Shown in pieces: positions 12,113 through 64,000 of a stretch of 64,000 nucleotides of DNA. The notes under the pieces are model-generated. The model made no database searches. It was not told where the DNA came from and was given only the letters and a program-made list of their open reading frames with translations. Source of the DNA: Amycolatopsis nigrescens CSC17Ta-90. Its GTDB lineage: Bacteria > Actinomycetota > Actinomycetes > Mycobacteriales > Pseudonocardiaceae. The position numbers and the translations under genes are program-made. The DNA lies in assembly GCF_000384315.1 (NCBI RefSeq), contig NZ_ARVW01000001.1, positions 9,047,010 to 9,111,009 of the forward strand, given 5' to 3'. The first letter of the stretch is position 1. The number at the start of each line of letters is the position of its first letter.

Positions 12113-12158
12113 GTCGTGAGTGAAAAGTGTTGCTCCGGCAACACTTTTCACTCACGAC
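12113..12158. terminator. Dispersed palindrome family A, copy 1 (bidirectional terminator)
   Basis: A perfect inverted repeat with 21-base arms starting GTCGTGAGTGAAAAGTGTTG and a 4-base loop. It lies exactly between the convergent stops of osmC and ftsQ. Near-identical copies occur at 54739-54784 and, cut in half, at 63490-63515. Confidence 0.8.
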
Positions 12159-54738: not shown

Positions 54739-54784
54739 GTCGTGAGTGGAAAGTGTTGTCCCGGCAACACTTTCCACTCACGAC
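54739..54784. terminator. Dispersed palindrome family A, copy 2
   Basis: Perfect 20-base arms starting GTCGTGAGTGGAAAGTGTTG flank the loop TCCCGG. It lies exactly between the convergent phospholipase and ftsK stops. It differs from copy 1 by a compensatory A-to-G / T-to-C change in the arms, keeping the pairing. Confidence 0.8.
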
Positions 54785-62032: not shown

Positions 62033-62044
62033 CGTTCGTTGGCG

Positions 62045-63496
62045 ATGCGCCGACGTCCACGGTTCCCGCTGCTCGCGCTCTGCGCACTGCTCACGGCTTC
62101 GGCGTGCTCGGACGCCCCAGACCCGGCAATGCCCGTGGCGTCCTGGGTGACCACCGCGGACGGCACGTCGCGTCTGACACCGCAGCCGCCGCTACGGCTG
62201 GAGCCAGTGGCGGCAGGCGACCGGCCGGTGCTCACCGTCCGGCCGGAAAACGGCCACCAGGTGATGCGCGGGTTCGGCGCGTCCTTCACCGACTCCGCCG
62301 CGACGCTGGTGCACTCGTCCCCGCGACGTGACGAGCTGATGGCGGCCTTGTTCGACCGCGAGCGCGGGATCGGGCTCGGCATGCTGCGGCAGCCGATGGG
62401 CTCGTCGGACTTCTCCAGCAGCTTCGGCAGCTACGACGACGTGCCGCCCGGCGAACACGACTGGCGGCTGGCGAAGTTCAACATCGACCGCGACCGGGCG
62501 CGGATCGTTCCGCTGCTGCGCCAGGCGTCCGCGCTGAACCCGCAGCTCGGCATCATCGCCACCCCGTGGAGCCCGCCGGCCTGGCTGAAGGACAACGACA
62601 GCCTGCTGGGCGGCAGCCTGTACGCCGCCGGATTCTCCACGTACGCCCAGTACTTCGTGCGCTTCCTGCTTGCCTACGCCGAAGCGGGCGTCCGGGTCGA
62701 CGCGGTCACGCCGCAGAACGAGCCGGAGAACACCGCCGACCAGTACCCCAGTGCGCGGATGACGGCCGCCGCACAGGCCGCCTTCATCGGCAACGACCTC
62801 GGCCCCGCACTGGCCGCGGCCGGGCTCGGCGACACCGAAATCCTTGCCTACGACCACAACTGGAACGGACACGGCTACCCGGCACGGGTGCTCAGCGACG
62901 AGAAGGCCCGCAAGTACGTGCGCGGAATCGCGTTCCACTGCTACCGGGGAAACGCGGCAGATCAGCAGAAACTGCTCGCCCGCCATCCGGACGTGCCGGT
63001 GCACATCACCGAGTGCAGCGGCACCGAAAGCGGTCCGCGCGCGTTCTCGGACACCCTGCTGTGGCAGGCCGAGCACCTGCTGATCGACGGCGCCAGGAAC
63101 CAGGCGTCCTCGATCCTCACCTGGAACGTCGCGCTCGACCCCGGCAACGGGCCGAGCTTCGGCCGCTGCGGGCACTGCACCGGCCTGGCCACCGTGGACC
63201 AGCGCACCGGGGAGATCGGCTACAACGCGGAGTACTACGTGCTCGGGCACGCCGCCAAGTTCGTCCGGCAGGGCGCGGTCCGGATCGACGTCGAGAACAC
63301 CGACAGCAACGGTTCCTTGCACTCCACCGCTTTCCGCAATCCCGACGGGAGCGTGGCCGTGGTGGTGCTGAACCCCGGCGAGCGGCAGACCTTCGACCTC
63401 GCGGTGCACGACCGCCGCGCCACGGCCACCCTGCCGGCCCGGTCACTGGCCACCTACCTGCTCCCCGCCGACGTTTCCGCCGGTCAACGGTCGTGA
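62045..63496 (+). CDS. Glycoside hydrolase family 30 lipoprotein (glucosylceramidase-like)
   Basis: About 483 residues. A signal peptide with a lipobox (ALLTASACSD) leads into a GH30 barrel: MRGFGASFTDSAATLVHSS at its start, the acid/base Glu in VTPQNEPENTADQYP, and the nucleophile Glu in VPVHITECSGTESG. A C-terminal beta-sandwich ends in LPARSLATYLLPAD. It cleaves beta-glucosides or similar sugars at the cell surface. ATG at 62045, or TTG two codons earlier. Its stop lies inside the half palindrome that follows. Confidence 0.9.
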   Translation: MRRRPRFPLLALCALLTASACSDAPDPAMPVASWVTTADGTSRLTPQPPLRLEPVAAGDRPVLTVRPENGHQVMRGFGASFTDSAATLVHSSPRRDELMAALFDRERGIGLGMLRQPMGSSDFSSSFGSYDDVPPGEHDWRLAKFNIDRDRARIVPLLRQASALNPQLGIIATPWSPPAWLKDNDSLLGGSLYAAGFSTYAQYFVRFLLAYAEAGVRVDAVTPQNEPENTADQYPSARMTAAAQAAFIGNDLGPALAAAGLGDTEILAYDHNWNGHGYPARVLSDEKARKYVRGIAFHCYRGNAADQQKLLARHPDVPVHITECSGTESGPRAFSDTLLWQAEHLLIDGARNQASSILTWNVALDPGNGPSFGRCGHCTGLATVDQRTGEIGYNAEYYVLGHAAKFVRQGAVRIDVENTDSNGSLHSTAFRNPDGSVAVVVLNPGERQTFDLAVHDRRATATLPARSLATYLLPADVSAGQRS

Positions 63497-63515
63497 GTGA
63501 AAAGTGTTGCCCCGG
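63490..63515. repeat. Half of a family-A palindrome: candidate att site
   Basis: The left arm and loop of family A (GTCGTGAGTGAAAAGTGTTG then CCCCGG) are present, but the right arm, which is complete in the other two copies, is replaced from about 63516 by unrelated DNA leading to a serine recombinase gene. It looks like a recombination junction. Confidence 0.6.
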
Positions 63516-63535
63516 CCAGTACCTAATTGTTGACC

Positions 63536-63541
63536 TACGAT
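63536..63541 (+). promoter_or_regulatory. -10 box of the recombinase gene
   Basis: TACGAT ends 6 bases before the ATG. There is no ribosome site, so the message would be leaderless or nearly so. No good -35 was found at 17 bases. Confidence 0.4.
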
Positions 63542-63547
63542 GGTTGC

Positions 63548-64000
63548 ATGGGTGCCAGTCACAAGGTTAGTGCAGGTCACGAGGGGCGTCGGCCCGTCTT
63601 GGACTCGTACGCGCGGTTGTCGCGTAACCAGGCGGGCAAGTTGGAGAAGTGCGAGACCCAGCATGCCGACAACGTGGAGGTGATCGAGGAACTGGGCGGC
63701 GTGCTCGGGGAGAAGATCTCCGATCCGAAGCTGTCGGCATGGAATCCGAAGGTTCACCGCCCGGGGTGGGAGTACCAGATGATGCGGGTTGCCTCCCGGG
63801 CGTGTGACGGGGTGGTGTTGTGGAACACCGACCGAGGGTGGCGGCAGTGCAGCGACCTTGAGGACATGTTCAAGCTGATCGAGGATTTCGACAGTTTCAC
63901 CCTGGGCTCCTCGCACGGGTCGTACAACTTGGCGGACTACAACGACCGCCACCAGTTGCGGCAGGAAGTGGCGCACAACCAGCGCAACTCGGACGAGGCT
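63548..64000 (+). CDS. Large serine recombinase (N-terminal part, runs off right edge)
   Basis: 151 codons are visible. The catalytic serine motif is VLDSYARLSRNQAGKLEKCETQ (YxRxS form), and the resolvase core continues with GWEYQMMRVASRACDGVVLW and NTDRGWRQCSDLEDMFKLIEDF. The usual second arginine area reads DRGWRQ instead of the commoner DRLTRR. Large serine recombinases integrate and excise phages and conjugative elements, and their genes lie at the element edge beside att, as here. The codon choice is less strictly GC3-rich than in the host genes. Confidence 0.85.
   Translation, partial: MGASHKVSAGHEGRRPVLDSYARLSRNQAGKLEKCETQHADNVEVIEELGGVLGEKISDPKLSAWNPKVHRPGWEYQMMRVASRACDGVVLWNTDRGWRQCSDLEDMFKLIEDFDSFTLGSSHGSYNLADYNDRHQLRQEVAHNQRNSDEA

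Follow-up and report, generated by a model that had tools for sequence, protein, structure and literature searches.

Integrative elements of Amycolatopsis appear to use dispersed, host-specific hairpins as landing sites

RESULTS

A half palindrome next to a serine recombinase gene

The right end of the window – the whole 64,000-nucleotide stretch of DNA analysed here – carries a GH30 glycosidase gene (62039–63496, plus strand; PF02055/PF17189), half of a palindrome, and the beginning of a large serine recombinase gene. The GH30 ORF is the left chromosomal neighbour of the inserted DNA, and its stop codon lies inside the left palindrome arm (TCG-TGA, 63494–63496). The half palindrome (63490–63513, plus strand), the putative left half of an attB site, consists of the arm GTCGTGAGTGAAAAGTGTTG plus CCCC, with a core dinucleotide CC at 63512–63513; its partner half is at positions 500–521 of the contig. 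The element's P′ half-site GGCCAGTACCTAATTGTTGACCTACG follows directly (63514–63539, plus strand), and then the 5′ part of the recombinase gene (63549–64000, plus strand), whose ORF could start at 63527 (TTG) or 63549 (ATG) and is open to position 64000, the last base of the single 9,111,009-bp contig. This agrees with an earlier note on this DNA, in which only a left arm and loop were recognised at 63490–63515, leading into the recombinase gene.

Two intact family-A palindromes, each between convergent ORFs and each a potential attB, are located at 12113–12158 (loop CTCCGG) and 54739–54784 (loop TCCCGG), exactly as that note had read them. They are predicted to fold at −43.4 kcal/mol (z −11.1) and −37.9 kcal/mol (z −8.9), respectively, values equalled by 0 of 200 shuffles in each case; the split site at 63490 folds at −9.0 kcal/mol (z 0.5), with no long hairpin.

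The right arm missing from the window is found at the other end of the contig. The first 499 bases of the contig end in AGTAGGTAACCAATTGCACCTTGGCTCC; AG comes next and then the right arm CAACACTTTTCACTCACGAC at 502–521, and the half-site preceding this arm mirrors the P′ half-site at 16 of 26 positions. The linear contig is therefore cut within the element.

A complete second copy in the genome

Both the start of the recombinase gene and the piece at the contig start have a second match, 100% identical, elsewhere in the genome. A complete second copy of the element (copy 2) is located at 3.79 Mb within another split palindrome, has the same P′ half-site, and is 5,488 bp long including the core at both ends; it differs from the copy at the contig ends (copy 1) at none of the 988 comparable positions (489 + 499 bp). 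Since copy 1 is represented by 489 bases on its left and 499 on its right, 4,500 of its bases are unassembled, and the presence of two identical copies probably accounts for the assembly break. Copy 2 shows the same anatomy as the split site at 63490, which bears out the earlier interpretation of the latter as the edge of an integrated element. The note had placed the cargo beyond 64000, and the element does continue, but it wraps to the contig start, and these 4,500 bp of copy 1 are missing from the assembly.

Copy 2 contains the recombinase gene (L055:10145-11716), a 133-aa ORF without a match in a Pfam scan, a gene for a Replic_Relax protein (PF13814), additional short ORFs, and a gene for a NUDIX protein. 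In a scan of four non-integrase ORFs from this element and four proteins from the elements of two relatives, we found matches to Replic_Relax, NUDIX and a TrwB/TraG-like ATPase, and among these eight proteins no Rep or FtsK-type Tra. The elements of the relatives carry the TrwB/TraG-like ATPase in addition to Replic_Relax, a combination suggesting that cell-to-cell transfer is possible.

The recombinase is whole in copy 2, where its 530-aa ORF (523 aa if counted from the ATG) encodes Resolvase (PF00239, 1.8e-6) and Recombinase (PF07508, 3.7e-6) domains, both above curated cut-offs, and the solved integrase 9iu2 matches its family profile. Alignment of 12 relatives, a comparison of sequences only, shows residues S25 (in YARLS), C313, C340 and C347 to be invariant and C316 nearly so; by the motifs of such enzymes, we take S25 to be the catalytic serine and the four cysteines to be those of a zinc ribbon. 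By sequence, the protein is thus a large serine recombinase (serine integrase), and is presumably active. NCBIfam assigns no family to it, and the phage and plasmid collections contain only relatives with less than 60% identity (255 and 12 records, respectively), with 23–29% in the best eight of each. DUF4368, described as common in the multi-targeting clade of these enzymes (Durrant et al. 2022, PMC10083194) but not required there, is absent from the protein (Pfam, E ≤ 0.001), in which respect it is unlike that clade. In the same source, recombinases count as multi-targeting when members of a single cluster, drawn at 90% identity, occur at several different targets; here, identical recombinases are present at two loci with different neighbours, and two are found in genome G060 and three in G044.

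Dispersed copies of the palindrome

The palindrome is present many times in the genome, as the earlier note had proposed: there are 157 full copies with up to three mismatches, or 167 by a looser pattern (up to two mismatches), and a reversed-pattern control gave 0 matches over the whole genome. The loop centre is CC or GG in 34 of 50 palindromes among the matches listed. Of 28 contexts examined, 13 are convergent, 5 tandem and none divergent, and 10 overlap a crude ORF call; in its many dispersed copies, with 18 of the 28 between ORF calls, the palindrome is REP-like. Eleven of the 28 extend over the 3′ terminus of a crudely called ORF (L117, L152, L153, L154, L158, L160, L162, L165–L168), which together with the GH30 stop codon gives the appearance that these palindromes often supply a stop codon. 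These contexts, and the hairpins kept in position in relatives described below, are consistent with the hairpins being transcription terminators at gene 3′ ends, and as such they may offer harmless landing sites.

Related elements and their attachment sites

Counting this genome, 80 from the genus were compared, and 26 of them have a match to the recombinase, with 41 matches in all. Two classes of relatives are discernible, with class A recombinases being 66–73% identical to the one described here and the class B recombinases that were measured 43–48% identical. A search for near-exact complements within 10 kb at 21 named loci revealed a right end only for a degenerate element in A. coloradensis, and a motif scan of those loci gave no further clear right end. 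Right ends in relatives were mapped by scanning longer stretches for the P arm GTCACAAGTAGGTAACCAA, which is kept at 0–3 mismatches in 15 mapped relatives. Both ends were mapped for eight of ten class A and seven of nine class B elements fetched (15 in all), and attR was not found for four of these 19 (G045, G024, G067 and G010). Matches not mapped at both ends also include fragments and distant matches (G063, G013, G021, G014, G011, G053, G059, G005, one in G055, one in G022, and two rows of G068), G062, and three G044 copies near contig ends. The distance from attR to the recombinase start is 10.4–18.6 kb in class A and 12.8–20.8 kb in class B. The A. coloradensis element (L074) has two ends with a P arm and right half, 310 bp apart, at 5.5 and 5.8 kb downstream of the start of its recombinase gene; this gene is broken, and the two ends are perhaps remains of two elements at one place.

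Rejoining the chromosomal halves of copy 1 gives GTGTTGCC-CC-AGCAACAC, and those of copy 2 GTGTTGCC-CC-GGCAACAC; intact palindromes with the loops of both are present elsewhere in the genome. The CC at the palindrome centre is common to attL and attR in both copies, and across the elements the core dinucleotide is identical in attL and attR at all 16 sites compared (the 17 less G060a). The recombinase gene adjoins one element end. The attP sites are symmetric at 15–24 of 26 positions (sites compared, G022a aside, which was read one base off register), and although attP and attB differ, both are partly symmetric; attB differs between the classes.

At 14 of the 17 rejoined sites (15 from relatives and the two copies here) the stem reaches at least 18 bp with up to two mismatches; among the controls, at least 16 bp is reached in 2.1% of 620 windows outside ORFs and in 0.6% of 1500 random ones. 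Stem length was chosen as the measure because folding energy separated sites from controls poorly in this G+C-rich DNA. The three sites below the criterion are G060a (mismatched arms), G022a (long loop) and G006. The G022a site, its junction taken one base off register in this fold, folds as a 14+4-bp stem, and it and G006 fold no better than 28–35% of random 90-mers. The G060a halves match poorly (TTGAGG versus CCTTGC; L082–L085), reflecting either an imperfect palindrome or a later rearrangement.

Class A sites have the core CT and are symmetric at 17–20 of 20 positions (seven sites compared). Class B sites have the core TT, which is off the dyad centre (5–17 of 20 symmetric) and falls in the arm, the loop or the hairpin base. 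A frame is open for 60 codons on both sides at seven of the 17 rejoined sites (G022a with its junction corrected) and at the other ten there is none, a measure that is not decisive in G+C-rich DNA; with long open frames across seven, intergenic placement is clear for ten sites only. The proposal in the earlier note that an intergenic palindrome serves as attB holds in that the arrangement recurs in 15 elements mapped in relatives, but needs amending for class B, where hairpins are struck off-centre, and for the seven sites where intergenic placement is less clear.

Elements within a genome are closely similar: G060a and G060b, 13.1 kb each, are 99.98% identical, and three G044 copies are 99.95–99.98% identical over 9.5–9.9 kb. 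Identities of 99.95–100% between copies in one genome, including the two described here, point to recent insertion at multiple sites.

Palindromes across the genus

The palindrome of this genome occurs in only two of the other 79 genomes, at one place each, with two mismatches and a TTAGAA/TTCTAA centre. These single palindromes (G007:C18:262424 and G033:C2:212090) combine arms like those of this genome (GGAAAGTGT) with the TTCTAA centre of the class A hosts, and are possible intermediates between families. The class A palindrome is present in 54 of 80 genomes and absent from this one; it has 12–437 forward matches in each of the eight genomes that encode a class A recombinase of full length, and at least 12 matches are found in 39 of 80 genomes (hypergeometric 0.002 for the association, uncorrected for kinship). 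On these counts, class A elements evidently use the palindrome of their own hosts, and that of this genome is nearly absent from 79 other Amycolatopsis genomes. One class B repeat pattern occurs 84 times in G071, 79 times in G072, and 3 (forward) and 11 (reverse) times in G008, and this same pattern, the only one counted there, gave 0 matches in G006, G022 and G055. Pattern counts thus show that the target is repeated in this genome, for class A, and in two class B genomes.

Empty sites in relatives

At the copy 2 locus, purB was found in 80 of 80 genomes, and in all 29 relatives read, out of 79 that have purB, a gene for an amino-acid-binding protein (SBP) lies 75–517 bp downstream with no element between the two. 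The gap contains a palindrome of the type described here in one of these 29 (G034), and a stem of any kind of at least 14 bp in nine. At the copy 1 locus, a VWA gene match is present in 67 of 80 genomes (this one included). GH30 is beside the VWA gene in two of 29 relatives read, G004 (67% identity) and G058 (61%), neither of which has a palindrome at the site, and the permease gene that precedes GH30 in the window adjoins the VWA gene in 17; in ten, neither GH30 nor the permease is within the fetched VWA flank. The conserved permease–GH30–VWA neighbourhood shows that the contig end and start are chromosomal neighbours.

A further insertion site, that of G060c, is uninterrupted in G044, where the palindrome is intact (95% identity over 284 bp). 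Thus, the comparison with empty sites proposed in the earlier note yields the gene order without element for both copies and an intact palindrome for a third element. Eight more relatives read at this site have a hairpin of unrelated sequence with a 16–31-bp stem, such that one intergenic place is occupied by different hairpin families in different species (L169, L171–L178), suggesting that hairpin position is kept and the sequence swapped.

DISCUSSION

These observations make it very likely that a ~5.5-kb integrative element has been inserted by its large serine recombinase into the centre of a dispersed, host-specific hairpin, and hairpins of this kind appear to serve as landing sites for it and for related elements of other species. 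Counting against this reading are the three sites short of the stem threshold, the four elements for which no attR was found, the off-centre position of class B sites with a repeat pattern that is rare or absent in four class B genomes, the long open frames at seven sites, and the scarcity of the palindrome at the empty sites of both copies. Serine integrases bind as a dimer at each site, bring the sites into synapsis, cut at the central dinucleotide, rotate and ligate. By this scheme attP would be an imperfect dyad of ~54 bp and attB the centre of the hairpin, each presumably bound by one recombinase dimer, with strands being exchanged at the dinucleotide in the middle (CC in this genome, CT for class A), so that the palindrome is divided between attL and attR. 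With attB being dyad-symmetric, orientation would be set by the dinucleotide. The element may excise as a circle and re-insert at other hairpins, and the dispersal of attB sites, permitting re-entry at many loci, would explain two to three copies per genome.

The alternative with most to recommend it, albeit an unlikely one, is that the enzymes have relaxed specificity and strike hairpins mainly for their abundance and symmetry, without dedicated recognition. Serine recombinases of relaxed specificity are described (PMC10083194), and class B sites share little beyond a short TT motif at varied hairpin positions; however, every mapped site here and in class A belongs to the local palindrome family with one fixed core, and the nine sites compared are symmetric at 17–20 of 20 positions. 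We regard as highly improbable the suggestion that the contig end and start are unrelated, with the start-side element end coming from another copy: although the 4,500-bp interior of copy 1 is unassembled, the reading is rejected on the conserved neighbourhood, in which GH30 (2 of 29 relatives read) and the permease (17 of 29) lie beside the VWA gene. There is hardly any likelihood that the palindrome halves are the element's own terminal sequence; the left half is indeed identical in both copies here, but the right halves differ (TTTTC/AG against TTTCC/GG), the halves vary by element while being complementary within each site, and the G044 palindrome is intact without an element, so that site-specific halves and the intact empty site together dispose of this explanation. 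Equally remote is a chance position of a decayed palindrome beside a recombinase gene, for palindromes do vary and lone arms occur (171 and 178 single-arm matches by strand versus 157 full palindromes), but the matching right half found at the opposite end of each copy, the uninterrupted gene order in relatives, and two matching ends in 15 more elements lead us to reject it.

Insertion into the hairpin centre has parallels in several systems. Group IIC introns use terminator hairpins as dispersed landing sites, with RNA-based retrohoming beside the hairpin; the targets are similarly dispersed hairpins, whereas the element described here would enter by DNA recombination within them. IS110/IS621 bridge-RNA recombinases are RNA-guided DEDD enzymes, some members of which insert at REP sequences; they too insert by means of a recombinase, with protein–DNA recognition by the serine recombinase being assumed here. 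There are precedents both for serine recombinases with multiple targets and for insertion sequences that target palindromes. The former are described as recognising relaxed motifs around a short core, some of them more complex (PMC10083194; PMC13137831), with two-copy integration in a native host also mentioned (PMC13137831). As in those systems, a genome has several attB sites and the core dinucleotide is fixed, but the target here is a long dispersed host hairpin with the core – here and in class A – at its exact centre. Insertion sequences targeting REP elements (Tobes and Pareja 2006, PMC1525189) likewise use dispersed extragenic palindromes as safe, multi-copy landing sites, although those reported there are moved by transposases in Gram-negative hosts rather than by a serine integrase with attP and attB. 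AICEs are actinobacterial integrative elements, a minority of which have PF07508 serine recombinases, and are described as inserting into tRNA or protein genes and requiring Int, Rep and Tra modules (Ghinet et al. 2011, PMC3218068). The element reported here is also actinobacterial and integrative with a serine recombinase, but neither a Rep nor a Tra module was found among the four non-integrase ORFs scanned from its 5.5 kb, and its target is a hairpin. It would thus act like a multi-targeting serine recombinase system, with a choice of target resembling that of the REP-targeting insertion sequences. Among the titles and abstract openings listed for open-licence papers, we found no large serine recombinase clade acting on species-specific dispersed hairpins, palindromes or terminators.

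These elements form a naturally occurring set of serine recombinases whose targets are mapped, long, G+C-rich and present in multiple copies, and the paired change in specificity, from CT to CC at the core with 66–73% protein identity, is material for learning how attB is read. With ~160 look-alike hairpins on this chromosome there are many places for the element to land. For the engineering of antibiotic-producing Amycolatopsis strains, the findings suggest insertion sites that are present in many copies and lie outside genes. What dispersed hairpins do in actinomycetes, and how they turn over, also becomes testable. Recombinase lineages may shift their specificity as the host palindrome changes. 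A broader scenario, which we consider rather doubtful, is that in Amycolatopsis and its kin gene-end hairpins are homogenised within species and swapped between them, and that a clade of integrative elements chases them, with recombinase, attP core and attB specificity co-evolving with the hairpin family; hairpin turnover would perhaps relieve the host of usable landing sites.

Outside the genus, a recombinase relative in Pseudonocardiaceae bacterium YIM PH 21723 (L066) is preceded by the hairpin-like sequence GAATGTGGCTTCC...GGAAGCCACATT, and one in Kibdelosporangium philippinense (L065) lies beside the hairpin-like CTCGTGAGTGGTTAGACGGGTTCTAG. The association with hairpins may therefore be family-wide.
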